From IMG/VR virus record IMGVR_UViG_3300048690_000251, positions 1 through 22,574 of that record: DNA of 22,574 nucleotides. One strand, written 5' to 3'. Shown here one piece after another: positions 1 to 21,203 of the stretch. This DNA comes from a virus. Both the position numbers and the translations under genes were made by a program. The notes under the pieces were generated by a model, which was not told the DNA's origin, did not search any database, and worked only from the letters and a program-made list of their open reading frames with translations. How positions within the stretch are numbered: position 1 is the first letter of the stretch; each line of letters starts with the position of its first letter.

Positions 1-704
1 CTCCCTGTTGCAACCAAATGATCTCTCCAGCCACCCTGGAGATAGTCGTATTTAGAGGGATGTGTTGAAAGCTGATGGATGAACAAGCCATCGCTAGGAT
101 TTAGCAATACTCCAACGTGAGAACTGTTCGCACCGCTGATGTTAAAGACCAAGATATCCCCTCGCATCAACTCCGATCGAGGAGATAGAAGTTTAAACCC
201 CGCGCGATCGACATTATCCATAAAAATATTCCAGCCAGGGCGATCGATCTCATTCCAACCTCCTTTTATTAGTTCAGTTCGATCGAATTCCGGCAAAATT
301 ATCTGCATCTCGAATCGATACCAGTGATCTATCAGGCTCCAACAATCATTAATCCCTGGTGCTGGCTGTCGATCGAGGTATGTCGAGTTAGCGCGAGGAT
401 CGTAGTATTTGAAAGTATTGGATTTTATATCGTACAAATAGAATGGTATTTGATGCTTAGTACACGTCAAAATATCTTGAGGAGACAAAGTATTGTTGCC
501 ATTAATATGGCTATGCCAAATTGCTTGAATGCCTTCATCAATTAAATATTTCCCATCTATTTGAAAGTTTTCTGATGGTATTTGCGATGTATTTTCAATG
601 TGAATACACTGATTGGATTTAATCAGTCCACAAGCTTCGCGACTTCTCTGGAATTCACTAATTGATATTTTTCTAATTTTTGCTTGAATTTCTTCGCCGA
701 ACAT
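1..704 (-). CDS. Lambda gpK-like tail tip protein, JAB/MPN + NlpC/P60 peptidase (partial)
   Basis: The gene reads from an ATG at 704 to the window edge, giving 234 complete codons with no stop, so its C-terminus is missing. I translated it by hand. Residues 1-100 form a JAB/MPN metalloprotease domain: Glu23 in a REACGLI motif, then His64-Ser-His66, seven residues, Ser74 and Asp77, which is a complete JAMM zinc site. Residues 115-234 look like NlpC/P60, with a candidate Cys121 (NDCW), a GDILVF strand at 182-187, His196 (SHVGVLL) and a possible third catalytic His210. This JAB plus NlpC/P60 order is that of lambda gpK, a tail tip assembly protein thought to act on tail proteins and/or cell-wall peptides. 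The ATG lies 3 nt after the gpL-like stop, matching the lambda order M-L-K. Confident on family; whether both sites are active is inferred. Confidence 0.9.
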   Translation of the reverse strand, partial: MFGEEIQAKIRKISISEFQRSREACGLIKSNQCIHIENTSQIPSENFQIDGKYLIDEGIQAIWHSHINGNNTLSPQDILTCTKHQIPFYLYDIKSNTFKYYDPRANSTYLDRQPAPGINDCWSLIDHWYRFEMQIILPEFDRTELIKGGWNEIDRPGWNIFMDNVDRAGFKLLSPRSELMRGDILVFNISGANSSHVGVLLNPSDGLFIHQLSTHPSKYDYLQGGWRDHLVATG

Positions 705-707
705 ATA

Positions 708-1301
708 TTAAACCTTGAATTGATCTATAAGTGGGAATCCACCAAATGGCAGTATGCCAGAGCCAAATCTAGCGCGGCATCCAGCTAAAGTATTTGGACA
801 ACTTGAAAATGCTGTCCCTTTGTAACCACAATCTCCATCTTTGAACACCCAGGGACAATTATCTCGATAAAACTTTCTACCAGGAATCTGGATCTTCTGA
901 AGCTCTAGGATTGATTTAAGTTCTAAAGTTATCGAAATTCCTGTTACCTTAGACGGGCGATTTACACTATACGTTTGCTCATAGCCAACTACTTTTTGTT
1001 GAGCTGATGGTAGTGACAAGTATTGTGCCCTTGTTTGGATCCTAGTTATCTCGGCCGCTCGAATACCATATCTGCGAATATAGCTAGATATCAATCCGTT
1101 GGTGTTTCCAAACGCTATCTTAGGCTCTGGCGATGCACCGCTAATGCGATCGAATCCTTCTACCTTAATGCTAATAGGCTTATAAACATTGCCCTTGAAC
1201 GCTATTTCCCCCGCTTCTTCGCCGTGATAATACTGAATTATCGGCACATTTAAGGGGTTCAAATCGAGTTTATATAGATCAATTAGAGTCTCTTCTGCCA
1301 T
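708..1301 (-). CDS. Lambda gpL-like minor tail protein (Fe-S tail tip protein)
   Basis: This encodes a 197-aa homologue of phage minor tail protein L, a structural component of the siphovirus tail tip. The diagnostic region is C-terminal: Cys residues in NCPW, GDCGY, SSCPN and LAGCRARFG followed by LPFGGFPLI. These four cysteines match the set that binds an iron-sulfur cluster in lambda gpL. The open frame extends upstream to a TTG at 1346, but I chose the ATG at 1301. It overlaps the stop of the gpM-like gene as TAATG, a classic coupling arrangement, and it avoids a 46-nt overlap. The N-terminus MAEETLIDLYKLDL also fits the family. The next gene (gpK-like) begins 3 nt after this stop. Family call is strong; the metal cluster is inferred from the conserved cysteines. 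Confidence 0.9.
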   Translation of the reverse strand: MAEETLIDLYKLDLNPLNVPIIQYYHGEEAGEIAFKGNVYKPISIKVEGFDRISGASPEPKIAFGNTNGLISSYIRRYGIRAAEITRIQTRAQYLSLPSAQQKVVGYEQTYSVNRPSKVTGISITLELKSILELQKIQIPGRKFYRDNCPWVFKDGDCGYKGTAFSSCPNTLAGCRARFGSGILPFGGFPLIDQFKV

Positions 1302-1663
1302 TACGATCTTCCAAAAGTTTGTTTTATTTTGAGAGTCCAAATCCACTCTTCCACCTTTGGATCTTTTCTATATCTATACTCGTAGCTGTATTCATCGATA
1401 AACCATGTTTTCGGCACATTACTCCTAGGAGATGTCCAATAAAACGGGCTGTGCTTACCGACGGAATCTATGAAAGTGTTGAAGCTAACTAATAAAGCAT
1501 TGCTAATTACCAACCTAATCGTCCATTTTTCCACGCTCGAATTTATCCCCGATTTGCGGCGCATTTCGTACCCGTCGTCAAATTGCGCGATCGCTACTCG
1601 TTCGATAGGCTCGGCGACGACATCACGTAATATTGGAAATCCTGTCAGTGTAGGTAATGGCAA
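1301..1663 (-). CDS. Lambda gpM-like minor tail protein
   Basis: The 120-aa product resembles the phage minor tail protein M family (lambda gpM), which joins the tail tip complex. Features seen are the FDDGYEMRRKSGIN segment, equivalent to the FGDGY..R..GiN motif of the family, a central W-T-I-R-L strand, FYWTSP, and a C-terminal EEWIWTLKIKQTF that mirrors the family's final beta strands. The length is close to lambda gpM (about 109 aa). No ATG exists in frame after the upstream stop, so the start is a TTG at 1663; an ATT about 27 nt further upstream is a less likely alternative. The stop overlaps the gpL-like ATG (TAATG), so the two are translationally coupled. Family assignment is good; the exact N-terminus is uncertain. 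Confidence 0.82.
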   Translation of the reverse strand: MPLPTLTGFPILRDVVAEPIERVAIAQFDDGYEMRRKSGINSSVEKWTIRLVISNALLVSFNTFIDSVGKHSPFYWTSPRSNVPKTWFIDEYSYEYRYRKDPKVEEWIWTLKIKQTFGRS

Positions 1664-2288: not shown

Positions 2289-3038
2289 CTAAATAAGCTG
2301 TTGTTGGCGATTGCTAATTAAAACGCGACAAGCTTCGTCGAGATTTTCCTTGCTGACAAACGGCTGTAGAGCTTTGCAAGGAACGGTATCAATTAGATCG
2401 CCTCGCCCAATACGACTCAACTCACGCTCTAATTCTGCACCAGATTTAAAGCTACGCCCACCATTCTTGTTGAGGTAGTCGGCTAATTGTTTGGTCGTTT
2501 GTCCACTGAATTTGACCCCTGTTTGCTGGTCAATTACTTCTAGAATGGGTCGATCGATCTCAACTACCGAATCTGCTTTACTCTCCAGTAGTAGTGTGGT
2601 AGCGATACCATGAGCGGCAATGCGGAAATCTTGGCGATCGTTCTCCCTTCCACGCAACTCCAAGGCACGGACTTCTAGCTCTAACTCTCGGATGCGATCG
2701 CTCTGGACGGGGATGATTTCTTTAGCAATTGAGAAACCTTTGACGAGATTCAGCTTAAATACTACAGCTTTTTGCGTGTTGCGTGCTAAAGTACCAGCGA
2801 AATTAACTTGGTCTTGGTTTAAGTACCACACAATCTCGCCATTCGCGAGGGTCATTTTAAAAATGACCCCTAATTCTACGAACGTTGATTCGTACTTCAT
2901 TAGCACATTAGATCGATAGCTTGTATGATTTGATATGCCAAATCCATCAGCAACTATACGTGAGTCTAGACGCAGTTCGCCATCTCGATCTTCCAACGAT
3001 ACTGAAATCTGTTTTGGTGTTAAAATCAATGTAGACAT
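2289..3038 (-). CDS. Rha-family phage regulatory protein
   Basis: The 249-aa product has an ATG start. Residues about 22-110 resemble the Rha domain (Phage_pRha): SRIVADGFGISNHTSYRSNV, a mid-domain F..L..IFKM segment, G.IVWYLNQDQVNFAGTLAR, and KAVVFKLNLVKGF.IAKE. These correspond to the family's recognition-like N-terminus, Y.LT.D.F strand and helix-rich end. A short coiled coil (RIRELELEVRALELRGREND) follows at about 114-133. A C-terminal helical region with QTTKQLADYLNKNGG may be a second DNA-binding or partner domain. Rha proteins of lambdoid phages are regulators that interfere with growth in some hosts. Such a gene does not belong to a tail operon, so it is probably a moron. It is flanked by related hairpins at 2246-2288 and 3065-3100. 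No strong SD or promoter is visible. Family call moderate; function inferred. Confidence 0.65.
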   Translation of the reverse strand: MSTLILTPKQISVSLEDRDGELRLDSRIVADGFGISNHTSYRSNVLMKYESTFVELGVIFKMTLANGEIVWYLNQDQVNFAGTLARNTQKAVVFKLNLVKGFSIAKEIIPVQSDRIRELELEVRALELRGRENDRQDFRIAAHGIATTLLLESKADSVVEIDRPILEVIDQQTGVKFSGQTTKQLADYLNKNGGRSFKSGAELERELSRIGRGDLIDTVPCKALQPFVSKENLDEACRVLISNRQQQLI

Positions 3039-3162: not shown

Positions 3163-6100
3163 TTAATTAATATACCCTTGCCGCTTCAACCTCGAGATCA
3201 AATCCATCACCTCACTGCGAACAAAATCTCTCGCTTGAGTCGTTTTACCAACATCGCCTTTACTTTCGCCATTGTTATTCATCGTGAAATTGTAGCTATT
3301 AGAATCACCAAATCGAGTGGTATTGCTCAAACTATTAGTGAACGATGAACTCGCCGCGCCAGATATTGATGGCATTCCCCCCTGAATTCCCCCATCTTCG
3401 TACCGAGGGATATTTGCCATATTCATCATCAAAGATCGATCGATCTCTTGCTGAAATATCTTGGGCATTTTCCCTTTATTGAGGTCATCAATTCCATCCC
3501 GACCAAATTTGGCTGTAGCTGGCTTATTAAGAATAGCCTCGCCTTTCATGATAATAGCTAAAGTATCATCCTTGGATGAATATCCTGGCACGATACCTTG
3601 CTGGAAACGAGTAGGGCGGCCTTGGACACCACCAAAGGCATAGGCTGGGATATCCAGAGTGTCATCATCACCCATGACCCCACCCATTTTGTAAGCGGGG
3701 AGCATCACAGGAATCATTGGATCGTCCCCCATAATTCCACCATCGGCATAAGCGGGGAGGAGTACGGGGATAGATGGTCGATCGCCTGCAATACCACCAT
3801 CGGCGAAAAATCCAGAGATTAAACCTGTTAGAATGCTCATCGGATTAAAACCGCCCTTACTGCCAGCCGATCCAGCCGCGCCTAGTACTGCGGCTCCCAA
3901 ACCTTTAGTCAATTTTCCGCCAAAATCACCACCAGCGACACCGCCGCCAATACCACCACCCTCGACGGTGACATTGACGGGTTTCTCAGGGGTTAAATCC
4001 GAAACCAATGAGACTGGTACAGGATTGCCGTCCGCGCCAGTAAATCCAAAGGGGATGGGAGTTTGTTCGGGGAGGATATCGGGGATTAAAGGTAATGGTG
4101 CATCTCTGAAGCCATACGGTGGGATGGGAATAGTTTCGGAAGCTTTTGACACTCCGAGATCTCCAGATCCAATCACCGTTACCGGAACTGGATTATTGGT
4201 AGTCGGCTGGCTAGGGGTAATCGATCGATCCTGAAAGCGATCGATCGGCAACTCTGAAGATAAACCATACCGAGTGTTGCCAAGTGATGGGATTTTAGCC
4301 TGCTTGTACTCTGGCAGTTTACGGCGATCTACAATTTGATTACCATCAAGGATTAGATTCTCTTGAGGAGTGGTAGATCCAATTGGCGGGAATTGAGCGG
4401 ACGATCGAGGGTATCGAGGTAGATCAATTGATCCTGGTGCAGTTGTTGGGATTTCAGGTGAAATCTTGATGATTCTCCCCGTGAAATCAGGCCGAGGAGG
4501 AATAGCCGGAAGCCCATTGACTTCGGGACTAGGTGAGGGGATGGGGGCGGGTGCTGGTAGTGCTTCAGCCTTCGGTGCCTCTGGTGGAGGAGGTGGGGGT
4601 GTTACTACTGCTGAAGATTGAGCGATCGGCAACGCTTGCGAGGTTGACTGAAAATCCTTTCGGGAGCCGCCGACTTCAGCTACTTTTCCAGGATCTACAG
4701 GGGTGATTTTAGTTAATAGAGGCTTGAATAAATCGCTGATTTTTTGATTAATGTATGAATTAATCAGTTTATTAGCCTCTGCCTGGATAGCTCGAAAAGG
4801 TGAGGCTAACAAATCTTTAAAAGCTTTATCAATGTTCGCTGCACTGCCTTTTACACTACCCGTCAATCCTTCCAGAACTGTGTCAGACAACGTGGTAGCT
4901 GCTGTGGATACCGTTTTAATAGCATCAGTCATTGGGTCAAACTGACGAGCTAAACTATCGAGTTTAATCTCGTTAAGCTTGATTAATTCAGTGTTCAGAT
5001 TTTGGAACTGTTCAACCGTCAGCACCCCTGCTCGTTGAAGATCCTCTAGTTCCTTAGTCTTTGATCGAAACTCCTGATTTTGCCCAACGACAGCCGCTTG
5101 ATAATTTAGCTTTTTAGCATCAAAAGTATTGCCCGCCGCCTCAGCTCGTTGCCCACCAACGGAGAGTAAAGCGGATCGACTGCCGACCAGTTGAGTGCCT
5201 TGAGTGAAATCACGCTCTCTATCGCGAGTAAACCTACCTGCATCAATAGCCGTGTTGTCTGTCTGCAATTTGCGGTATAGCTGTTGTACATTGGTCGCGA
5301 AAGCTTCAGCTACTTTAGGGTCATTGGGTGCCCTCTGCTTGATTTCTACTTGCTCTTGGATTGCCTTCTCATATTCTGATCGATTCCGCTGCTTGGCGGT
5401 TGTATCGTCGATGAGTTCAGCATCTCTCTGCCGTCCTTGCGCCCTGGCTAATGCGCCTAGGCTAGAATCCGCAGATAATCTAGTATCGGTGCCAAACTTT
5501 TTGCGATCGAACACAGTCCGCCGCTCTGCAAAATCTCGCTCAAAGATGCCAGTATTGTATTCATCGGTAGTGTTTGCGATCGATCGCGCTTCACTATCTT
5601 CAAGATTACGAGACTGGGCATCAATTTTAGCTTTATTAGCTGGGTTGGCAACTCGTTTTTTCTCGATTAATTCTTGGCGTTTGGATAGATTATTTTGACG
5701 AATACGAAGGATGGAGATCTCTTTTTTAATCTCCAACGGATCGCCTTGCGAATTATCGAAGAGGTTGAATTTTTGATAAGTTTCAACCTCTTTCAGTTTT
5801 TCTTCTCTGATGGCAATTTCCGAGCCGATCGTATTAACATCAGTTGAGGTGTTGAGAGCTTGAACTCGATCGGCTGATTTAATAGCTGTATCTTTCTTGG
5901 CATCTACCCCAGCTTGTTTGGATTTAGCCAAGAAGAATTCATCTTTAGCTATTCTTCTCTTGAGTTCATTAATTTGATACTCTTGCTCCTTCTGAAGCTT
6001 TAATAAGTTTTGCTGCTGTAGTGGTGTACTTGCATTGAACTGAGGCTTATTGGCTATTTGAGCGGATGTTTCCTCCCTTGCTAATTGAACTGCTCCTAGT

Positions 6101-9100
6101 GTGCGTTTATCGTCTTCCAGTCTTCTGGTAATGCCTAGATTTCGCTCGAATGTCTTGCGATCGTCTGCGAATTGTTCTCGGCGATCGAGGTTTCCAGGAG
6201 TGGCATATCCAGTGGCTAAATTTGAATCAGAAATAGCGTTGTAAGAACCAGTTAATCGATCGTTACTTTGACGTTTGATATCAATCTTTTGCTTTTGAGC
6301 TTTCCGAGTTAATCCGACTACTTTAGATCTTGCCTCACGCTTATCCTGTTCGGCTTTCGAGTCAATTAGAGTTCGATCTTTCTCATCGTTCTGGATGATA
6401 GTTACTTCAGATTCATCCAATACTTTCCGCTGAGTTTTTCCCGAACTATTGGGAGTTAATCGGGTGCGATTTGGATCTGTACTTGAAATAGCTGGAGTTG
6501 AAGCACCAGGCTTTAAGCCAGATTCACGCAAATAAAGATCGTAAAGTTCGCGATCGGTTAACCCTTGTTTTGCCAGGAAATTGACATTAGTAGAATTGCG
6601 ATCGTACTTAATCATACCATCGCGCTTGCTCTCATACTCCGCACCCAAAGCTTGGCGCAAAGTCACAAAGTTTTTGAAACTAGGATCTTGCTTGAACTGT
6701 TCGTTCGCGGTATACCCTTTATCACCGCCTCGCGCGGCTGGATTTCGCAGCCGCATTTTCTGGATTTTATCCTGAGACGCTGGGCTAAAATCTCTGATGC
6801 TGGGATCGCGTTTTGCCGCTTCCTCGTAGTCAACTCGATGGAATTGATAGCGTCCTGCTGGTTTATCTCCAGCAGATGTGGGAAATCCTCGGCTTGCTTC
6901 TTCTGGCGAAAAATTGCTACCGCCATATTTGTAATAATAGCTTTTTGCAGATAGGGGATTTGGAGTTTCACCCATCGCGATTACTGCTCTCAATCCTCGA
7001 TCGTAATCGACACGATCCTTGGTTGGAGTAGCAGTAGGTTCGGTTTTACGGGTGCGTTTGCGAGTAAGCGCGGGTACTGGGGTCGGATCGATCGATGGAG
7101 TGGGATCGAGATTTGCGCCTAGCCGATTTTCTAGTTCATTTGTATTTTTTACTAATTTCCGCCGTGCCTGGGGTGAGTCGGGAGTATTGTAAAATTGACT
7201 CAGCGCGTATTTGCGACCATTGAGGGTGACGATTCCAGTGTTTCCCAAGCTCTGGCTATTATTGCCAATTTTTCCCCCTTGTTCCCCTTTGTAGCCAAAC
7301 TTATTAGGGCTGGTTGCAAGCGATTGATTAATTATTTTAGCCGATGGATCTGCGGAGTTGGAAACATCTATCAAACCTGCGTTCAGATCTTTCGCTGTTG
7401 TTTTATTCTTGAAACCTGTAGCTCCAGGTAGGCTAAAATAATTACCTAATTTACTACCTGTATAGCCAAGTGACTTGAAGCCTGCATTGACAGTATCTAC
7501 CCCCCCCAATGATTTGATTAGAGCGTTGGAAGCGGTATTATTGCTATCTCTCAATGATAATTTCAGCAGCGACGCTATGTCAAAGGTCTTACCTGCCATA
7601 GCTTTGTCACCAGTGGCGACAATTGACGGGTCGATCGTTACCTTATCGCTCAAATTAAGAGTTTTCGCATTTGCCTTGTATCTCACCATTTGAGCCACAA
7701 GTAGCTTGAGAGTAGATGCGGAACTAGCGGGTTGAACTTGAGAATTGTACTCTGAAACAACCTTACCAGTTTGAAGATCTTGAAGAATCGACGATTGATA
7801 TCCTCGTTGCTGATAAAATTCAGCCGTGACGGGTTTTATTGGAGTGGCAACTCGCTTACTTTGACTAGGTTGGCGAACTAGTCCATCGGTGGCCTCACCA
7901 ACCGATGGAGTACCAACAGCTCCTCTCTTCCGCTGATATTCATCATTTTCGCGGAAGAATTTCTGAGGATCCATTTTCCGACCATTTTGACTCATATCAA
8001 AATGCAGGTGCGGATCGGATCCGGTGTGATTTTCGACAACACTCCCGACGGGCTGACCAGCTTTAACTCGATCGCCAGACTTCACACTAGATTTAACATG
8101 TACTAATCTAGCAGTAGTTGGAACGCCCTTTGCATCAACTCCTTTGATGGCAACAATTCGACCCATGCTTTTGCCAGAACTGCTTTTGCCAGAATCATAT
8201 TCACTGACGACTCCAGATATTGGAGCCTGGACGGTAGCCCCAAGCCCACCCGCCGCGCGCCTATCGTAATCGATCCCACCATGATCCTCCCATCCACTGC
8301 GCCGCCTTCTTTTGGAGTCAAACGCTTGGTTGTTGATGCCTTCTCTGCGCGGCTTATAGCCGATAACTTGAGAGAGTGATGCGCCCGACAGTGGGCTTAC
8401 AACCGCACCCGGATTATCACCACCACTAGCCCCAGTAGTCTCAGGGGGGAAACTAACCCCACTATCGTCAGTGCGGGCTTGCTGCCTCCGCTGCTCGTTA
8501 TCTTGCCGTGCTTTCGTAGCATTCTCATTGCGCTGACTTTGAGCTTTTTGCCGCTGCGATTCAATATCTAGTTCTTTCCCTGATTCATTGATGATCTCGA
8601 TCCAAGTATTAAAATAGCTAGAGAACTCATCGGCCGCACCCGATAAAGCTGTTTGAAGACGTTGGTTGAATCCCTGATTTTTAATGCTATTCTCGGAGGC
8701 TTTAACGTCGATCGAGGTGCGTTGAGCTTGATAGAGTAACGACTGGTTGTAGTCGCGGATCGATCGAGCATTCTCAGCAACTGCCTGTTGATACTCTCTG
8801 GTGCTACTAGCTGCTTCTGCGTCTTGGGATTTAAGCTGGTCATTGAGGTCGCGAGATGCTTTAATGCGCCCAGCTAGGTCATCTTTTGCGCCCAAAGACT
8901 TTATATTAGCTAATTGCTCATCAGATGTATTGCGGATATCTTTTGGTAAGTCACCGGATTTTTGATAAAGTTCAACCTGTTTTTTCAGGATTGGATCGCG
9001 TAAAAATCCCTCATTTTCACCGACAGCTTTTTTGGTGACTTTTTGCCGATCGAGAATATCTTTTTGCAAGCTGGCGTAAAGCTGAGTCGCCAATGCACCA

Positions 9101-12100
9101 GCCTCAAGCGGATTCAAGCTAGCATTTTTATTGATACTAGTTTCTCTAGTTGTTCGGGTATCCTTCAACTGATTTAAAGACGCGCCCAAATTTCCCGACG
9201 ATCGTTTGATTGCTAGATCTAAATCTGTCAGCCCATCACGAACTGTGCTAATTACTTTCTCAAGTTCGTTAGCTCTATTACCTAGTAATTGAATATAGTT
9301 TTGCGCTTGGGCTAATATCTTGGGATTGTCTGCATATGTGCCAGAATCAGTAATTTCTTGTTGCCCTTTCTTCTGATTTTGAATAATTGCTAACTGAGTA
9401 GTTAGTGGCTCGGTGAGTTCAGTTGAGTCAGTAATTAGCCCTTGAATTTCCTTTTGAACTCTAGTAGTGCCTGCTCGATCGCTAGCAGGCAACAACGATT
9501 GTTCTTGGCGTAGAACAATTAACTTTCGATCGATCTCTGCCTTCTGCCTGCCGATCGCATACGGATCTATTTCCGTGCCTACCTTCTCTTTGCCTAGTGG
9601 TTTTTTGAGCGCTGACCCAAGATCGCTTTGTGCAATCTCTACCTCTAGAAGTTCTTGCTGTTGTTTTCTGGCGACAAAATCAGGTTTTTTATCTTTGAAT
9701 TTATCAGGAACTTTACCTTGGAAAAGATTGCTCGTGCTTTTCTCGCTTTCAGATTGAAAAAGGTCTCCCCATGACTCAAAAAAAGTTCTCTTCGGTAAAA
9801 ATTTCTCTTCCTGAGCTTTCCGAGCTGGAGATTTTAAACTATCATTAGTTTTGTCGGATTGATCTTTGAGATCTGATAATCTACCAGATAACTTTCCAGC
9901 TTCATCCGCATATTTTTTAAAAGCAGATGGTTCAGCACTAGCATTCAAAGTCTTGAAAGCTTCGATCGCTAGATAAATCCCACCTGTCAATAGAGCGAAT
10001 TGACCGATCGCTGGAGCTACAGCCAACATAGCACCCCCAAAATTTACAACCCCCGCCGCCGCCATTGCCATCTTCCCCGCAAAAACTAAGCCAGCAGCAC
10101 CAGCCGCCGCCATCACCGCGATGAATACAGTAGCAAAAGTTTCGGCGTTGGCAGAAATTCCGTCAAGAGCGCCCCCAGCTAATTTAGCTCCGGTAGCTAG
10201 AGGCGCAAGCAGTCCGTCACCTACAGCCTTTTGTAGGTTGGTCATCGCTCCCTGAGTACGTCCCAAGGCGGCCGATGTAGAGTTCAACGCCTCATCCATC
10301 TGGCTACCAGATGTTGCGGAGGATAGCCCCACGTTCAACGCCTGAATGGCATCAACACCCGATAGGGTGCCCGCGTTCGTCTGCTTTCTCAGTCCCGTGA
10401 CTGTGGTACCCAATCCTCGCGCTAGTAATGCACTGAAGCCAGGTAAGTTTTCCTCAGCTTGCCCAATATCCTCTTGAGTGGCGTTTGCTTTGCCCGCTAA
10501 CTGGATTACTTGTCGCTGAACTCCACTCAGACTTTGAGGATTTAACCCTACTAGCCGAGCATACTTAGTTGTGTTGGCAACGGTGGCATCACCAATCCCT
10601 TCCAAATCCGTTCCGAGAGTCGCAGACTTGAATCCCTGAACGCTTTGAGTTACATCCAAGGGGTTGAATCCTAGTTTATTCGCCAATGCTCTGGAGCTAC
10701 CGATCGATCTAGCAGCAGTCGAATCACTACTACTAACAGCTTTCGCCGCGATCGATAAATTATCAAAAGCAATCGCTGTTTGAGCCGCACCCGCCCCCCA
10801 TGAGCTTAGCAATCCCCCGACAAACTTCAGTCCCTGAAAAGCGAAAAATGCTCCGCCCGCTGTTTTTGCCGCTCCCCCAAGAGACTGTAGTGGATTAATA
10901 GATTCGATGATTTTTTCTTTATCGCCTGCACTACCCACGCCAAAACGCGGGATTTCATCAAGGTTTAAGCCGTCGCCATCATTTCCGCCCCCGTCACCGC
11001 CATAGAATCCAGGAATTTGTCGAGCTGCTCGGTTAAATCTTCGAGCCGATCGACGGATTCGTTCCTCGGCTTCTCCGAACTGATTAGCAGGTCTGGTGGT
11101 GCCGGACTCTAACTCGATTCGATCAAATTCATTGAGCTGCTGTCCGATTTTCTTGGATGTCCGTCCAAAATTGCCAAACTGATCATTGATTTCATTACCA
11201 GCACCAGCCGCGACATTAATGCTCCGTTGTTGCGATCGCTTATCACTTTCAAAATTCTGTTTTCTAACTTCTTCGGCTTTTTTTCTCCGATTTCTAACTT
11301 TTAATAGAGATTCACTACTCTGTACTTCTTCAAAATTAGAACTGGCTGAATTAAAGCTTTCTTCTAATTCATCTAACTTGTTCGCGGATTCTCGCGACGC
11401 TTGCTCTGATGCCGTTTCTCTTCTAAAGAATGGTTTTCTACGCTTATTTCTGCGTTGAAATGGACTTAGGGATGCGAGTTGGCCATCTTCTCCCAATAGA
11501 TTGGCATCTGCATTGGTGCTACCTGACTGGAAAGGTTGAGGATTGTAATATTTCGGTTTTCTAGTATCTACACTTAGTGATTTAAGCGAGTCATCTGAAA
11601 AATTTGGAACTTCAATAATTTGCTCGATCTTTTTAGCTCGATCCGCTTGAACTTTGCGCCAATTTCCGACAACCCCTTTGTTCGTAGCTGAATCACTTTG
11701 ACCAATGACATTCGGATCGATGAACCTCTGAAATTCATCTACTTGCCGCCCAAATTTCTCGAATAATTCAGCCGCTACTTGCTTACTGCCATTCTTGATA
11801 GCTGCATCTAATTTTCTGCGAGTGCTGACAATGCCTTGCCGTGCAGTGGCTTTCCAGTCATCATTGACTGGCATAGCCTCAACAATTGGCGAGAGTTCAC
11901 CTGTACTAGTCAACTGCAACTTTTGAGCATTAGCTGATGCACCTTTCAATTGCTTTTTATTGGGTACTCCTGGCAAAGCTGGGCTTTCTGATGGCAATGG
12001 CTCATAATCAACCTGTACTAAATTTTGAGCCGCTGACAAGGCTTTTGTCGCCACCTGCTGCCCAGCGGAAACATAGTCTAGCTCGGATTTTTTAGAGGGG

Positions 12101-14688
12101 AGAGCTAGCTTTGCTCCTCGATCGGCTAATTGTAGTGCAACTTTACCAGCTAATATAGGGGTAAGTGCTGCAGCAAAAGCCTCCATTCCTACCGTTGCTA
12201 GGGTGCCCGCTCCAGATGATAAAGCTGGGCCAATTAGCGGAACACTACCAAATGCAGAGCCAACCGAACCAGCCACCGCTTCCGCGATGCCCGCACTTGG
12301 CAGTGATAGCAGACCATTCATCGCTCCTCCGACTGCCGACTGTGCCGCAGCACCACCGGGTAGTAATCCTATTCCACCATAAATGGCTGCTGGGAGAGCA
12401 ACATTCTTCCCTACGGATTTGATTTGCTGCCCGAATGGAACGATGGGTAAAACCGCGTTTTCAACGCCTTGCAAAGCATCATAGCTATTACGAAGGAATT
12501 GAGCCACTGGCGCACCAACCTTTTGGGCCGTAGACCCAATTTTCTGAGCATAGCCGATCGATCCTTTGAGCGACTGCCCTAATCTTTCAACAAGAGGTGC
12601 CTTTACTATTTCAGGGGTAATTGCTATCTCTTGAGCCGCAGGTGATGACTTTGATCGAGGCGGGGCAGAAATTAAATCAGGAATTTTAGATCCTAATGCT
12701 TTCGATCGACTTTTCAGCGACTGAATCTGCTGTAGATTTTTATCTAGCTCCAGCTCGATTTTCTTGAATTCACCGCCATCAATATCACCTGCTTGCGCTG
12801 ATTGAATTTTAGCTAGAAGATTATTTCGCTCAGTGGTGAGCAATTGTTGCTTCTCCTGGATTCTTCCTAATGATGGAATATCCAGATTTTTGGTATTAGC
12901 AATCCCTGCTATCAGATTTGAAGTTTTTCCGATGTCAGATAAATCTTTATTTGTAGATTTAAAATAGTCAACTCCACTACCACCAGCTACTTCGGTGATT
13001 TTCTCTAGAGTTTGTTGCTCTACGTACTTTTTCTGACTTCGATCGCGCTTAATCTTAGCTTGCCTCTCGATCGGTCGAACGCTTTTATCGTACAGCCTTA
13101 ATTCATTCTCGATCGCCAACTCTTCAACAGGAGTGGCTTTGATTTTTGGATCTATCAGTCTTTTCTCATTGACCGCTTGAACTCCTTCAAACCTCCCAAA
13201 GCGAAAATCTGAACTATGCTGCGCTTCTTCAAATAAGATATCTCGATCGATCTTTGATAATGGCTTCCCAGACTGAACAGCTTTGTAAGTATCGGGATTT
13301 AATGAGATTGTATTAGACGCTGCATTGTATGCCCCTCTAGTCCCCTCCGTCTTGCCGAGGCTTTGATCGGACTTTAATTTGGGAACTAATGAGGGATCTA
13401 ATCCTGGCGCAATTTCATCGAGAATGTCTTGATACGCCGCTGGTTGTTGCTGTCGTTGCAATGCGTCGGATTGCCGCTTGGCTACTTCAGCTCGTTCTCT
13501 GGCAACTCTGAAGTCAATTTTTCGAGATTTGGCTTGTGTATCTAAATAATCTAATTTCTGTCCCAATAACTCCCTAGGAGCATAGATGCTAGTCTCAGAC
13601 TCATCCAATTGGCGCAGTTTTCTAGATGCTAATGGTGCGCGCCCAACTCGATCGACCTTTCGATTGATCGATGCCAGTACCGGATCGCTAGCACCTGCTC
13701 GACGTGATTCTAATTTGGCCAATTGCGCCTGACGAGCTTTTTCCAGCCGCTCTTTCTCGATTGCTCTCCGCTCATCAACATACTTCTGATTTTTCTCTTC
13801 TCTTGGAGCTAAATCTATTAATTGCTGATTAACTTGAGATCGTTGAGATTCGATGTAGTCTAACGCAGCTTTCTTTTCCTGGTAGTTTGCGATCGCTGCT
13901 TGCCGTTCGACTACTACTCCTTCTTGTGCTAATTTTAGGTCTTTCTTTTTGGTTCGATCGCTAGTTCCCCGCCCTTTGTTAGCTTCAACAGCAATATCTC
14001 GTTCGCCAACAAAGCCTCTAATCTCACCACTAGCTGATTTAATAAACTCATCAACTACAGGAAATTGCTCTCTTGCTTTAACTACAGAAGTTTGAATTTT
14101 CTGAGTCGAAGCTTTCGATAATTTATCCAGTATTAACTTTGGAGATCCAATAGTACCTGATGTTAATTGGCTAATTTGATTGCCAACAAAACCAGTTAAA
14201 CTTGTCTGAAGATTTTTACCGATATTCTCAAAAGCACCTCGACTAATACTAGCAAGTATACTTGAAGGATTTGATGCCTTCATCCCTTTCTCGATCGCAG
14301 ATTGGATCGATCGAGACAGACCATCTCCGTCAACGTCGGTTTTAATCTGAGTCGAACGCCCGTTGACTGAAATATCCCGACGCGGCTGCTGTAACTTATC
14401 TAATTTTCTTGAATATTCGTCAAGGGAGGTGTAGTCCGCCTTTACCATCAAAGGCTTGGCAAAATCAGCCCGAACCTGGGCTAAGTGAGCCTGCTTGAGG
14501 CTTAGGTGCTTGTTTAGCGCAGTCAGTTGAGAGTCATCAACAATCGGTCTGATTGGAACAGAATTTTGCAAGCTTTGCCATTTGGCTTTATACTTCTCAA
14601 TCGATCGATCGGCCGCAACCAATGCAGATTCCAAACCAGGTAGATCGACACCGAGTCCTAACTCTAACCGCCCTAAACTGTCACTCAC
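3163..14688 (-). CDS. Giant tape measure protein with M23, beta-lactamase-like and GH104 domains (3841 aa)
   Basis: This protein sets tail length and is ejected into the host at infection. It has a GTG start with GAGG 7 nt upstream. Residues 1-430 are helical and charged. About 425-530 hold a degenerate zincin-like segment (E487-E-A-Q-H491). Hydrophobic stretches lie at about 755-855 and 1515-1578, on either side of a tape-measure core (about 1260-1520). Residues 2113-2250 are an M23 endopeptidase: His2136 and Asp2140 in HGGID, and His2227-Leu-His2229. Residues 2290-2515 are a class A beta-lactamase-like serine hydrolase with S2325-T-L-K2328, S2382-N-N and K2473-I-G. Residues 2558-2690 resemble lambda endolysin R (GH104): candidate Glu2574, AGRYQF at 2611-2616 and DFSPASQD at 2633-2640. 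About 2800-3320 resemble the lambda tape-measure C-terminal region. A proline-rich linker (about 3363-3403) and GGI/GGV repeats end the protein. Domain order is seen in the sequence; enzyme activity is inferred from the conserved residues. Confidence 0.95.
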   Translation of the reverse strand: MSDSLGRLELGLGVDLPGLESALVAADRSIEKYKAKWQSLQNSVPIRPIVDDSQLTALNKHLSLKQAHLAQVRADFAKPLMVKADYTSLDEYSRKLDKLQQPRRDISVNGRSTQIKTDVDGDGLSRSIQSAIEKGMKASNPSSILASISRGAFENIGKNLQTSLTGFVGNQISQLTSGTIGSPKLILDKLSKASTQKIQTSVVKAREQFPVVDEFIKSASGEIRGFVGERDIAVEANKGRGTSDRTKKKDLKLAQEGVVVERQAAIANYQEKKAALDYIESQRSQVNQQLIDLAPREEKNQKYVDERRAIEKERLEKARQAQLAKLESRRAGASDPVLASINRKVDRVGRAPLASRKLRQLDESETSIYAPRELLGQKLDYLDTQAKSRKIDFRVARERAEVAKRQSDALQRQQQPAAYQDILDEIAPGLDPSLVPKLKSDQSLGKTEGTRGAYNAASNTISLNPDTYKAVQSGKPLSKIDRDILFEEAQHSSDFRFGRFEGVQAVNEKRLIDPKIKATPVEELAIENELRLYDKSVRPIERQAKIKRDRSQKKYVEQQTLEKITEVAGGSGVDYFKSTNKDLSDIGKTSNLIAGIANTKNLDIPSLGRIQEKQQLLTTERNNLLAKIQSAQAGDIDGGEFKKIELELDKNLQQIQSLKSRSKALGSKIPDLISAPPRSKSSPAAQEIAITPEIVKAPLVERLGQSLKGSIGYAQKIGSTAQKVGAPVAQFLRNSYDALQGVENAVLPIVPFGQQIKSVGKNVALPAAIYGGIGLLPGGAAAQSAVGGAMNGLLSLPSAGIAEAVAGSVGSAFGSVPLIGPALSSGAGTLATVGMEAFAAALTPILAGKVALQLADRGAKLALPSKKSELDYVSAGQQVATKALSAAQNLVQVDYEPLPSESPALPGVPNKKQLKGASANAQKLQLTSTGELSPIVEAMPVNDDWKATARQGIVSTRRKLDAAIKNGSKQVAAELFEKFGRQVDEFQRFIDPNVIGQSDSATNKGVVGNWRKVQADRAKKIEQIIEVPNFSDDSLKSLSVDTRKPKYYNPQPFQSGSTNADANLLGEDGQLASLSPFQRRNKRRKPFFRRETASEQASRESANKLDELEESFNSASSNFEEVQSSESLLKVRNRRKKAEEVRKQNFESDKRSQQRSINVAAGAGNEINDQFGNFGRTSKKIGQQLNEFDRIELESGTTRPANQFGEAEERIRRSARRFNRAARQIPGFYGGDGGGNDGDGLNLDEIPRFGVGSAGDKEKIIESINPLQSLGGAAKTAGGAFFAFQGLKFVGGLLSSWGAGAAQTAIAFDNLSIAAKAVSSSDSTAARSIGSSRALANKLGFNPLDVTQSVQGFKSATLGTDLEGIGDATVANTTKYARLVGLNPQSLSGVQRQVIQLAGKANATQEDIGQAEENLPGFSALLARGLGTTVTGLRKQTNAGTLSGVDAIQALNVGLSSATSGSQMDEALNSTSAALGRTQGAMTNLQKAVGDGLLAPLATGAKLAGGALDGISANAETFATVFIAVMAAAGAAGLVFAGKMAMAAAGVVNFGGAMLAVAPAIGQFALLTGGIYLAIEAFKTLNASAEPSAFKKYADEAGKLSGRLSDLKDQSDKTNDSLKSPARKAQEEKFLPKRTFFESWGDLFQSESEKSTSNLFQGKVPDKFKDKKPDFVARKQQQELLEVEIAQSDLGSALKKPLGKEKVGTEIDPYAIGRQKAEIDRKLIVLRQEQSLLPASDRAGTTRVQKEIQGLITDSTELTEPLTTQLAIIQNQKKGQQEITDSGTYADNPKILAQAQNYIQLLGNRANELEKVISTVRDGLTDLDLAIKRSSGNLGASLNQLKDTRTTRETSINKNASLNPLEAGALATQLYASLQKDILDRQKVTKKAVGENEGFLRDPILKKQVELYQKSGDLPKDIRNTSDEQLANIKSLGAKDDLAGRIKASRDLNDQLKSQDAEAASSTREYQQAVAENARSIRDYNQSLLYQAQRTSIDVKASENSIKNQGFNQRLQTALSGAADEFSSYFNTWIEIINESGKELDIESQRQKAQSQRNENATKARQDNEQRRQQARTDDSGVSFPPETTGASGGDNPGAVVSPLSGASLSQVIGYKPRREGINNQAFDSKRRRRSGWEDHGGIDYDRRAAGGLGATVQAPISGVVSEYDSGKSSSGKSMGRIVAIKGVDAKGVPTTARLVHVKSSVKSGDRVKAGQPVGSVVENHTGSDPHLHFDMSQNGRKMDPQKFFRENDEYQRKRGAVGTPSVGEATDGLVRQPSQSKRVATPIKPVTAEFYQQRGYQSSILQDLQTGKVVSEYNSQVQPASSASTLKLLVAQMVRYKANAKTLNLSDKVTIDPSIVATGDKAMAGKTFDIASLLKLSLRDSNNTASNALIKSLGGVDTVNAGFKSLGYTGSKLGNYFSLPGATGFKNKTTAKDLNAGLIDVSNSADPSAKIINQSLATSPNKFGYKGEQGGKIGNNSQSLGNTGIVTLNGRKYALSQFYNTPDSPQARRKLVKNTNELENRLGANLDPTPSIDPTPVPALTRKRTRKTEPTATPTKDRVDYDRGLRAVIAMGETPNPLSAKSYYYKYGGSNFSPEEASRGFPTSAGDKPAGRYQFHRVDYEEAAKRDPSIRDFSPASQDKIQKMRLRNPAARGGDKGYTANEQFKQDPSFKNFVTLRQALGAEYESKRDGMIKYDRNSTNVNFLAKQGLTDRELYDLYLRESGLKPGASTPAISSTDPNRTRLTPNSSGKTQRKVLDESEVTIIQNDEKDRTLIDSKAEQDKREARSKVVGLTRKAQKQKIDIKRQSNDRLTGSYNAISDSNLATGYATPGNLDRREQFADDRKTFERNLGITRRLEDDKRTLGAVQLAREETSAQIANKPQFNASTPLQQQNLLKLQKEQEYQINELKRRIAKDEFFLAKSKQAGVDAKKDTAIKSADRVQALNTSTDVNTIGSEIAIREEKLKEVETYQKFNLFDNSQGDPLEIKKEISILRIRQNNLSKRQELIEKKRVANPANKAKIDAQSRNLEDSEARSIANTTDEYNTGIFERDFAERRTVFDRKKFGTDTRLSADSSLGALARAQGRQRDAELIDDTTAKQRNRSEYEKAIQEQVEIKQRAPNDPKVAEAFATNVQQLYRKLQTDNTAIDAGRFTRDRERDFTQGTQLVGSRSALLSVGGQRAEAAGNTFDAKKLNYQAAVVGQNQEFRSKTKELEDLQRAGVLTVEQFQNLNTELIKLNEIKLDSLARQFDPMTDAIKTVSTAATTLSDTVLEGLTGSVKGSAANIDKAFKDLLASPFRAIQAEANKLINSYINQKISDLFKPLLTKITPVDPGKVAEVGGSRKDFQSTSQALPIAQSSAVVTPPPPPPEAPKAEALPAPAPIPSPSPEVNGLPAIPPRPDFTGRIIKISPEIPTTAPGSIDLPRYPRSSAQFPPIGSTTPQENLILDGNQIVDRRKLPEYKQAKIPSLGNTRYGLSSELPIDRFQDRSITPSQPTTNNPVPVTVIGSGDLGVSKASETIPIPPYGFRDAPLPLIPDILPEQTPIPFGFTGADGNPVPVSLVSDLTPEKPVNVTVEGGGIGGGVAGGDFGGKLTKGLGAAVLGAAGSAGSKGGFNPMSILTGLISGFFADGGIAGDRPSIPVLLPAYADGGIMGDDPMIPVMLPAYKMGGVMGDDDTLDIPAYAFGGVQGRPTRFQQGIVPGYSSKDDTLAIIMKGEAILNKPATAKFGRDGIDDLNKGKMPKIFQQEIDRSLMMNMANIPRYEDGGIQGGMPSISGAASSSFTNSLSNTTRFGDSNSYNFTMNNNGESKGDVGKTTQARDFVRSEVMDLISRLKRQGYIN
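3580..3804 (-). repeat. Four degenerate 17-20-residue tandem repeats in the tape measure C-terminus
   Basis: Within the tape measure gene (residues about 3629-3703), four units share the pattern x-x-G-G-[IV]-x-G-[DR]...[IV]P-A/G-Y: ADGGIAGDRPSIPVLLPAY, ADGGIMGDDPMIPVMLPAY, KMGGVMGDDDTLDIPAY and AFGGVQGRPTRF...VPGY. Units 1 and 2 differ at only three positions, and their DNA is also similar, which points to recent duplication. The last unit runs into DDTLAIIMKGEAILNKPA, a motif common near the C-termini of tape measure proteins. Confidence 0.8.
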
Positions 14689-16669: not shown

Positions 16670-17848
16670 TTATTTTTTCTTTAAAGTAAGGGTGAAATAC
16701 TGATCGGCGAGTAGTACGCCAGCGTCTGAGCGGAGATAAATGGCATTGCCCACACAGTAAGGATACCCTTTGTTGGCGGTAAGGGCAAAATTATCCTCAA
16801 CTTGTACTGGGATAGCACAGATCATGTTGTTCCCACCAGGATAATTCATTCCTGTAACTGTTAAAATAATTTCGGTCGCATATTCCAAGCATGTTACCGA
16901 AGCCGCTGTTGCTCCGCCGAATAGCGTCACAGTAAGAGGATTCGAGGTTTTCAACATTCTATCTATGAGTGCTTTCAGCCCTAAATCAGTTAGCAATTTT
17001 TCGCCTAATGCGAGATTTGGCTTGCCAACTAACGCAGCTATTTCATCACTAATAGTAATCGATGGAAGTGGATTATCAAAACTTCCAGGAAATTTTTCGG
17101 TGCTTGCGCCTTGCAGTATGTTGCCCATTTTTTTGCCTTTGTTATAAAGTTCAATAGTTTTTTCAAAAAATCTAAAAGCTATTAGCTTCATTCCTTTGTA
17201 ATCCCAGTGATTAGCATCCCAGAAAGTTGCATTTTTCACTGAAATCAAGCTGTACCGATTGTTTGTTTTAACAATTCTAGCAATTGAATCATTACGAGCA
17301 ATTTGTATTTCTGGCAATGCAGAAAATAATATTGGCAATTCAAGGCCAATATCAGCTATTAATCGATTGTGGTATTCGATCGTTTTTTGTCGCCAAATAT
17401 CTTCGGCAACACTGCTAGCATCGTTAATCCCTTGGGTATACCAAACGATCGGGAAAATATCTGTTCCCAGCAAAGCCATAGCCGCCTTAATCCGAGTGAT
17501 GGCAGTAGTGTAATACCCCGAATCTCCCCCCCAGTCCGCGATCTTGCTCCCACCTTGCCCTGTTTTTACAAGATAAACTTCACCAAGCCAAGAATTTAAA
17601 AGTACTGAGCGAAGCAGCCCAACTTCCCATCCGTGTCGTCCTTCAATTACCCCAGAGGGGTAAGAACCAGAGATCTCGGTGTGGCCAAGTAAATTGTTAA
17701 TACCTATGGCTAAATCTTCAAATAACATGGTATTGTTATTTAGGATTTTCACAGCTCGGTTTGGCTTTAGTTCAAATGGATTGCAATCAGAATTGAATGC
17801 AAGGCCACCAGAATTAGATTCTCCATTAAAAATGATCAGTATTTTCAT
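16670..17848 (-). CDS. SGNH/SASA-type carbohydrate esterase in the tail operon (392 aa)
   Basis: Residues 1-230 carry the SGNH hydrolase blocks in the form typical of sialate/acetyl-xylan esterases (SASA, DUF303): Ser11 in FNGESNSGG (nucleophile), Gly99/Gly100 in KTGQGGSKIADW, Asn142 in YTQGINDA, and the Asp211-Ala-Asn-His214 pair in FWDANHWDYKG. These would remove acetyl groups from polysaccharide. A linker at about 240-300 precedes a beta-rich C-terminal domain (about 300-392; VTLFGGATAASVTC, ILTVTGMNYPGGNN, DQYFTLTLKKK), which may attach the enzyme to the tail. There is no signal peptide, as expected for a virion protein. The gene lies between the putative tail tube and chaperone genes, an unusual place for receptor-degrading enzymes. 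Catalytic blocks are clear; substrate and virion location are inferred. Confidence 0.85.
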   Translation of the reverse strand: MKILIIFNGESNSGGLAFNSDCNPFELKPNRAVKILNNNTMLFEDLAIGINNLLGHTEISGSYPSGVIEGRHGWEVGLLRSVLLNSWLGEVYLVKTGQGGSKIADWGGDSGYYTTAITRIKAAMALLGTDIFPIVWYTQGINDASSVAEDIWRQKTIEYHNRLIADIGLELPILFSALPEIQIARNDSIARIVKTNNRYSLISVKNATFWDANHWDYKGMKLIAFRFFEKTIELYNKGKKMGNILQGASTEKFPGSFDNPLPSITISDEIAALVGKPNLALGEKLLTDLGLKALIDRMLKTSNPLTVTLFGGATAASVTCLEYATEIILTVTGMNYPGGNNMICAIPVQVEDNFALTANKGYPYCVGNAIYLRSDAGVLLADQYFTLTLKKK

Positions 17849-19736: not shown

Positions 19737-21203
19737 TTAATCTCCGCCGAAAGCAGGGGCGTAAATTTCTTGGGGCTTCTCTCTCCGGGTTACCAAGCAG
19801 ATGTATCTCACTGCATCGGCAATGTGATCGTTAGCGTTGGTATCCACATCCGCCGGGTGGCTTTCGTCTCGCGGAACTGTTGGCATCATCGCCCAAAACT
19901 GCGTGCAGCGGGGCGATACATATAGCCCTGGATGCTCAAAATTACCCGCTCGAAACATCATCGTCCGTAAGTGCTCCCAGCCAGAAATCCGATCGCCCTT
20001 TTTGGCGGGGGAAAACCTTACGCCAGCTTGGAGAAACAGAGCTGCGATCGAGTCTCTGCCATCATTTGCAAAGCAGGCATCATCGGCAATATTATCGATC
20101 GACATTGGGTTGAATCCCCACAGCCCGCAAAATGATTTGATCCGATCGGCTGCAACGTCGATCGTCAAGTTCAGCCCCTTGATGGGATTGTTCGACTGTG
20201 CTAGATACAGCTCATCCAATAACGCGATCGAATCGCGCGAATAAAAAGTATCATTAACGGTAGAGCCAGGTGATATCGCCGCCAAATACACCGCGCATGG
20301 TGCAGCCGTGCCGTAATCCATGCCGATAAATGGCCTCCATCCTTGGGGGATAGCGTTCCAGTTGGGGGTGATGGAACGATCGCGATCGAGTACGGTAGCG
20401 AAGTAGGCACCACGAGCGATATTCCAATCGCCTTTAACATATGCCTTTTGCAGCTCCATGTCCGTAATTGTGGAGGATAGTAACAATGACAGGTATTGCT
20501 CTCGATCGAGGGTTGTATTATCCAAGTACGTGGATAAAATCGTCACTACCGTTCGTTTCGACTCTTCCTCTAGATAGGACTCCCCCGATATGCGCTGGTT
20601 GATATATCGCTTGTAAATCCACCCGTGACCAACATCGCCAGGGTTAGCGAGAATTGTTCGCCGCAATGGTACGCCCTCATGTCCGCGCAAGTTGGAAAGT
20701 AATCGATCGAGCAGCACCGGGCTAGAAAACTGCCCAGCTTCATCAATATACAGATCGATAAAAGTTTTGCCCTGAAATTTCCGATAATCTCGATCGTGTT
20801 CGAGTTGGGAGAATTTTAGAATTCCACCGCTCTTAAATCGCCAAAGTTTCTTGGTAGAGTTGTACTCGCCAGGACAATGAATCGCAAACACGTCGCGACA
20901 TACTTCCTCGAAATCTTCGATCCCATCATAGGATTTGCGAATATATAGCCCACGATATCGCTTCTTGTACTTATTCGCCCTTGCTGCAATCCTAAAAGCC
21001 ACCCCGTAAGATTTCCCACCTCCCCGCCCTCCCATCAGCGCAAGATCGTCCTCTGTGTCGATGATTCTTTTCTGCAAAGGTGTTGGCGGTCTGAGGTTAG
21101 ATGTTGATGCCAAATCTAGTCTATATGCTTTTTCGAGCCGCCCGATCGCCGCCCTAGCTGTTGGTGTTCTTGATCGAACATTGCCATATCTTTTCGCTAC
21201 CAC
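19737..21203 (-). CDS. terL: Phage terminase large subunit
   Basis: This is the ATPase/nuclease motor that packages DNA into the head. The ATPase domain has Walker A GGRGGGKS (58-65), an adenine-binding-type Q motif before it (PTPLQKRI), Walker B IDLYIDEA (Asp154-Glu155) and coupling motif ILANPG (184-189). The RNase-H-like nuclease has Asp296 in GMDYG, a middle acidic region (IDVAADRI near 350, DNIADDA near 372) and NDHIADAVRY with Asp459 and Asp463. The length of 488 aa is normal. The GTG start is preceded by GAGGAGG; the terminase small gene ends 7 nt earlier. Family certain; DNA-packaging mode (cos or pac) cannot be read from this. Confidence 0.97.
   Translation of the reverse strand: MVAKRYGNVRSRTPTARAAIGRLEKAYRLDLASTSNLRPPTPLQKRIIDTEDDLALMGGRGGGKSYGVAFRIAARANKYKKRYRGLYIRKSYDGIEDFEEVCRDVFAIHCPGEYNSTKKLWRFKSGGILKFSQLEHDRDYRKFQGKTFIDLYIDEAGQFSSPVLLDRLLSNLRGHEGVPLRRTILANPGDVGHGWIYKRYINQRISGESYLEEESKRTVVTILSTYLDNTTLDREQYLSLLLSSTITDMELQKAYVKGDWNIARGAYFATVLDRDRSITPNWNAIPQGWRPFIGMDYGTAAPCAVYLAAISPGSTVNDTFYSRDSIALLDELYLAQSNNPIKGLNLTIDVAADRIKSFCGLWGFNPMSIDNIADDACFANDGRDSIAALFLQAGVRFSPAKKGDRISGWEHLRTMMFRAGNFEHPGLYVSPRCTQFWAMMPTVPRDESHPADVDTNANDHIADAVRYICLVTRREKPQEIYAPAFGGD

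Follow-up and report, generated by a model that had tools for sequence, protein, structure and literature searches.

A tape measure protein of a probable cyanobacterial virus carries M23, penicillin-binding-protein-like and GH104-like domains side by side

The largest open reading frame of a 22,574-base virus record, analysed here over its whole length and referred to as the window, encodes a tape measure protein (TMP) in which three wall-enzyme-like domains lie side by side within a 518-residue stretch (residues 2136-2653). These are an M23 metallopeptidase domain, a serine hydrolase domain resembling penicillin-binding proteins (PBP-like), and a GH104-like domain (Table 1). Judging from profiles and motifs, we consider it fairly probable that this stretch is a peptidoglycan-cutting cassette within a siphovirus TMP, in a slot that follows the TMP core towards the C-terminus. 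The trio appears to be a real but rare cell-entry kit. The initial annotation had called the combination unusual, and it is indeed rare among the TMPs sampled, but it is not unique, since a database search for the same trio found one further TMP, that of a cyanobacterial prophage (L118). What is unusual is this trio in a TMP; multi-enzyme virion kits have already been described (the A-1(L) hub and CwlP).

Table 1. Features of the window that bear on the tape measure protein and its wall-enzyme-like domains
Feature	Position in window	Strand	TMP residues	Basis or remark
Tape measure protein gene	3163..14688	-		single open frame, 3841 aa, GTG start
TMP_3 core	10225..10791	-	1300-1488	PF20155 match; blastp to cyanobacterial prophage TMPs
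M23 metallopeptidase domain	7966..8283	-	2136-2241	PF01551; phrog_7767 metallo-endopeptidase; lysostaphin matches
Class-A/PBP-A-fold serine hydrolase domain	7198..7785	-	2302-2497	PF13354; AlphaFold2; VIA-align; residue check
GH104-like domain, N-terminal half only	6730..7002	-	2563-2653	8kea hub match; profile match
Lambda gpL-like minor tail protein	708..1346	-		PF05100 79 bits; phrog_18
Lambda gpK-like tail protein, NlpC/P60 domain	3..704	-		PF00877 34.4 bits; phrog_30 minor tail protein; runs off window
Large terminase gene	19737..21203			upstream of TMP gene

The Pfam model PF20155 (TMP_3) scored 38.5 bits against the frame (cut-off 41) and TIGR02675 scored 18.7 bits over residues 1376-1443 (cut-off 21.35), each slightly under its threshold, and blastp aligned the protein with clear cyanobacterial prophage tape measures at E-values as low as 4e-12. 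The gpL- and gpK-like genes lie just downstream of this very long frame in a tail module. Based on these matches and on the gpL, gpK and terminase neighbours, we concluded that the frame is a lambda-type tape measure protein, and its strand, coordinates, length and start codon had been correctly annotated at the outset. No match to phages was found for its N-terminal half. Tape measures scale at 0.15 nm per residue, so the tail could be about 570 nm long if the whole TMP counts. The protein contains no cysteine in any of its 3841 residues, which fits passage through the tail tube but is not distinctive, since cysteine is scarce in other TMPs of this kind too. A possible fourth wall peptidase in this tail module is the NlpC/P60 domain of the gpK-like protein. 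In the long N-terminal extension, residues 463-495 (window positions ~13200-13310, minus strand) include FEEAQHSSDF, which resembles a degenerate metalloprotease motif; a metalloprotease at residues 400-700 (EEAQH) was considered and rejected, with no match in Pfam and nothing meaningful in the PDB.

The host is probably cyanobacterial, as the initial annotation had supposed. The palindrome CGATCG, whose abundance is a hallmark of many cyanobacterial genomes, occurs 98 times in the window, where base composition predicts about 4, and the near relatives that were found are mostly cyanophage or cyanobacterial proteins.

Of the three domains, the M23 metallopeptidase was borne out as first described: PF01551 scored 47.3 bits (cut-off 28.7), and both ligand motifs are complete, HGGID at residue 2136 (HxxxD) and HLHFD at residue 2227 (HxH). 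The third domain had been described as a lambda-R-like GH104 muramidase. Its relationship to GH104 and its motifs stood, namely candidate catalytic E2574, GRYQF at 2612 (within AGRYQF) and DFSPASQD at 2633 (SPxSQD), but the detectable match is confined to the N-terminal half; the likeness to R-type enzymes also stood, but lambda R is a lytic transglycosylase and not a hydrolytic muramidase. The region matched the lysozyme domain of the A-1(L) baseplate hub (8kea) with E=6e-7, and a GH104 profile built from the hubs, lambda R and two cyanobacterial GH104 proteins matched the TMP with E=4e-15 over residues 2581-2648 (best of 200 shuffles, 0.11). The C-terminal half of the family (AID..S..WASxPG..GQ) was found neither in the TMP nor in neighbouring frames, and Pfam gave no match to the GH104-like part. 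In the phage collection it matched only hub, VgrG-like or 'lysozyme' genes of seven Nostocales phages. Genome contigs gave no match to it, and tblastn against viral contigs returned nothing closely related to either the trio or its GH104-like part; a DNA-pattern search of the viral contigs for GH104 gave a single contig, which proved unrelated. A single-sequence model of the region was too poor to use (pLDDT 43.7) and was discarded. The third domain would thus be GH104-related but either truncated or very divergent.

The strongest alternative to a three-enzyme cassette is that only the M23 and PBP-like domains are catalytic, with the GH104-like piece surviving as a relic or as a remnant that binds peptidoglycan, a reading that we regard as possible but lean against. 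The missing C-terminal half speaks for it, being undetectable in the window yet present in L118 and in the hubs of A-1(L) type, as does the account of the A-1(L) hub, in the accessible part of which cell hydrolysis is reported for the endoglucanase and peptidase domains and none is stated for the lysozyme domain. Against it, Glu2574, GRYQ and SPxSQD are all retained, which is unexpected in a drifting relic.

For the middle domain, PF13354 scored 70.2 bits (cut-off 22), and an AlphaFold2 model built from 47 sequences reached a mean pLDDT of 90.1. Foldseek searches with this model scored PBP-A and class A beta-lactamases alike, and PBP-A headed the VIA-align ranking (Z 27.3 and 27.2; 231 residues, rmsd 2.5), level with LRA-5 and others, with other class A enzymes close behind. 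Initially described as class A beta-lactamase-like, the domain does have the fold and the motifs reported for it (S2325-T-L-K2328, S2382-N-N2384 and K2473-I-G), and residues S2325, K2328, S2382, N2384 and K2473 align with Ser61, Lys64, Ser122, Asn124 and Lys219 of PBP-A. All 82 aligned homologues, viral rows included, share the first four of these residues with the window domain. Glu166 and the Thr of KTG are, however, absent. The Glu166 column, located through PBP-A Leu158 with the L158E mutant (2j9o) as a marker, holds F2418 or L2420 depending on gap placement and in neither case a Glu, while the equivalent of PBP-A Thr220, a Thr in 79 of the 82 homologues, is Ile. Because both residues are absent, a DD-peptidase-like enzyme fits better than a beta-lactamase, and our best guess at function, by analogy, is a DD-peptidase that is not a typical beta-lactamase. 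The third motif reads KIG in the window, KID in L118 and KVG in a related viral contig (L085), so catalysis or specificity may differ from those of PBP-A. PBP-A of Thermosynechococcus elongatus (tll2115, 2j7v), for which DD-carboxypeptidase and DD-endopeptidase activities with a preference for amidated stems have been demonstrated (PMC11189452), shares with the window domain the fold, SxxK, SxN and the absence of Glu166; unlike the window domain, it is a stand-alone, membrane-anchored host enzyme with KTG intact and falls in a separate tree clade.

It is also conceivable, though unlikely, that the PBP-like domain is non-hydrolytic and binds host peptidoglycan or its D-Ala-D-Ala stems, anchoring or steering the TMP. 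Such a role would accommodate the changes in the third motif across the viral lineage and the replacement of Glu166, with which beta-lactamase-style fast deacylation is not expected; but the nucleophilic Ser, the Lys and SxN are retained in every viral row, and PBP-A is an active DD-peptidase although it too lacks Glu166 (PMC11189452). A phage-borne class A beta-lactamase giving protection from beta-lactams was rejected as extremely improbable, for although PF13354 and the class-A fold match, the NCBIfam class A model reached 39.7 bits where 200 are needed, the two residues named above are missing, and the domain is located within a tail protein and adjoins other wall enzymes.

The prophage L118 (G304:C53) encodes a 2127-residue TMP with M23 at residues 806-851, the PBP-like domain at 896-1125 and GH104 at 1193-1336. 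Like the window, it has a TMP_3 core followed by the three domains in equal order, and a lambda-type tail module. The two proteins share 32% identity across window residues 2155-2541, the M23/PBP-like part, and at E < 0.01 blastp aligned them at just one other place, weakly, near the C-termini (E=0.004); from this we take the M23/PBP-like part to be better conserved than the rest. There are differences. The M23 domain of L118 falls below the Pfam cut-off with no clear HxxxD in the aligned stretch, whereas that of the window scores above it with motifs complete, which suggests that the M23 module can decay; the GH104 domain is complete in L118 and half present in the window; and L118 alone has a weak YkuD-like match upstream of the trio (15.4 bits, below cut-off). 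That two divergent TMPs have retained one domain order suggests joint action of the M23, PBP-like and GH104 domains. An assembly artefact joining the TMP to unrelated wall enzymes was likewise rejected as scarcely credible: residues 452-3841, trio included, are covered by the window contig alone, a second contig (L003), 100% identical over residues 1-451, ending at residue 451, but the 3841-aa frame is single and open and the domain order recurs in the independently sequenced L118 TMP, to which a protein of IMGVR_UViG_3300035007_000011 is itself identical. A further record, L121, was discounted as an independent case, being identical to L118, and L122, found with the cassette alignment, matched the M23 part only.

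To place the trio among tape measures, we used a sample of 386 cyanobacterial genomes, in 46 of which PF20155 had a match (above cut-off in 19), and compared 17 TMP frames drawn from the matches listed. With our own profiles run on all 17, the PBP-like and GH104 domains were present in one (L118) and in none of the other 16. Pfam identified M23 and DPBB_1 (RlpA-like lytic transglycosylase) in one prophage TMP (L117:5390-9985) and DPBB_1 alone in another (L113:5783-10561), in both after the TMP core, and none of the three domains in the other Pfam-scanned frames; four frames (L100, L115, L119 and L120) were covered by our own profiles and by blastp with the window M23 only. The M23 plus RlpA-like DPBB of the first and the lone DPBB of the second suggest that wall enzymes can be exchanged in the region following the TMP core. 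Among 391 genomes from the order of the L118 host, the PBP-like matches listed, besides L118 itself, were in frames of at most 623 aa, which appear to be stand-alone host proteins. Two giant TMPs (L098:570-12131 and L114:2784-13025) have long N-terminal extensions, with marginal matches to an ABC1-kinase-like domain (23.0 bits, cut-off 22.9) and, below cut-off, to a SprT-like domain.

In two trees, the window domain grouped with the PBP-like domains of L118, Microcoleus phage My-WqHQDG and the IMG/VR contig L085 (support 98/88 and 96/87), followed by a bacterial protein (L005), with cyanobacterial PBP-A apart. Based on this grouping, the PBP-like domain likely belongs to a virus-associated lineage and not to the cyanobacterial PBP-A clade sampled. 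Because the tree tool issued a long-branch warning and the pairing of the window and L118 TMP domains was weakly supported, we regard it as likely, and not as proven, that the window domain is not nested within the sampled host PBP-A. In My-WqHQDG (WOL31302.1, 31% identity to the window domain) and L085, the domain is C-terminal on a non-TMP protein of 653-665 aa, with amidase and M23 on separate neighbouring genes. A viral structure model (A0A510E7V3_3, a 1191-aa piece) matched the PBP-like domain with TM 0.89 and 33% identity and looks like another large viral protein carrying it. We tentatively propose, with almost as much inclination to accept as to doubt, that cyanobacterial phages have their own lineage of PBP-fold serine DD-peptidases, marked by KIG/KID/KVG and distinct from host PBP-A and from beta-lactamases, carried on entry machinery, in TMPs and in one further protein that is not a TMP, next to metallopeptidases and glycan-cleaving enzymes. 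The middle module likely belongs to a viral branch of the penicillin-binding/beta-lactamase fold that has attracted little notice. The L005 protein (L005:324-2192; OMIW01000075.1, 'Proteobacteria bacterium isolate AM_0729') is the nearest non-viral relative of the window domain, with 622 aa, PF13354 at 92 bits and YkuD/Tlde1-like domains, thus two wall-acting folds in one bacterial protein, which may be an antibacterial effector.

A plausible role for the trio is in crossing a thick wall during ejection. This scheme starts from what is observed (the domains with their folds or families and motifs, their equal order in a second TMP, and the gene context), and from it we infer activities, timing and biological need. 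The TMP would exit the tail tube before the DNA, and its three domains, once out of the tube, would fold or gain activity in the host periplasm. There, the M23 domain would cut peptide cross-links or stems, and the PBP-like domain would act through an acyl-serine on D-Ala-mDAP cross-links (as a DD-endopeptidase) or on D-Ala ends. Glycan would be cut by the GH104-like domain, should it be catalytic. The likely outcome would be a local hole in the host peptidoglycan, made while the TMP is leaving the tail.

Among analogues tested by experiment, the closest is the baseplate hub gp15 of Anabaena phage A-1(L) (8kea), whose endoglucanase and peptidase domains attack Anabaena cells (PMC10966104). As in the window, several wall enzymes are combined in one cyanophage virion protein; among solved structures, the gp15 lysozyme domain is the one most closely related to the GH104-like part, and a peptidase domain lies at the gp15 C-terminus. 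Unlike the window protein, gp15 is a myophage hub and not a TMP, has an endoglucanase in place of the PBP-like domain, and has its domains in a different order; its relatives are found in N1, A1, Elbi, YongM, YongM2 and Dfl-JY23. Wall hydrolases in tape-measure-associated proteins are also known from mycobacteriophage TM4 and from CwlP of the Bacillus subtilis prophage SP-beta. In the TM4 TMP, the wall hydrolase motif mt3 helps DNA to be injected into stationary cells, and tails are shorter when it is removed (PMC1796659), which suggests, by analogy, that such domains lie stretched along the tail tube. CwlP has two domains, a muramidase and a DD-endopeptidase (Sudiarta 2010 as cited in PMC9662197), TM4 has one, and a PBP-like domain is reported for neither in the accessible parts of these sources. 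In an enterococcal survey, TMP lysins were lytic transglycosylases only (PMC10194240). No description of a PBP or beta-lactamase domain in a tape measure was found in the literature searched, from which subscription papers were largely absent, making this weak evidence. If our reading is right, a PBP-type enzyme in viral DNA-entry machinery would be a seemingly undescribed use of the fold, and beta-lactams acylating the domain might slow entry. The trio also offers a test case for the passage of folded domains of this size through a narrow tail tube.

Elsewhere in the window, a SASA-type carbohydrate esterase (PF03629, 41.7 bits) is encoded at 16670-17848 in the virion gene region. Between the TMP and gpL genes of the tail cluster, a 249-aa frame (2289-3038) has a weak phage Rha-like N-terminus, based on phrog_2657 and a match to PF09669 below its cut-off.
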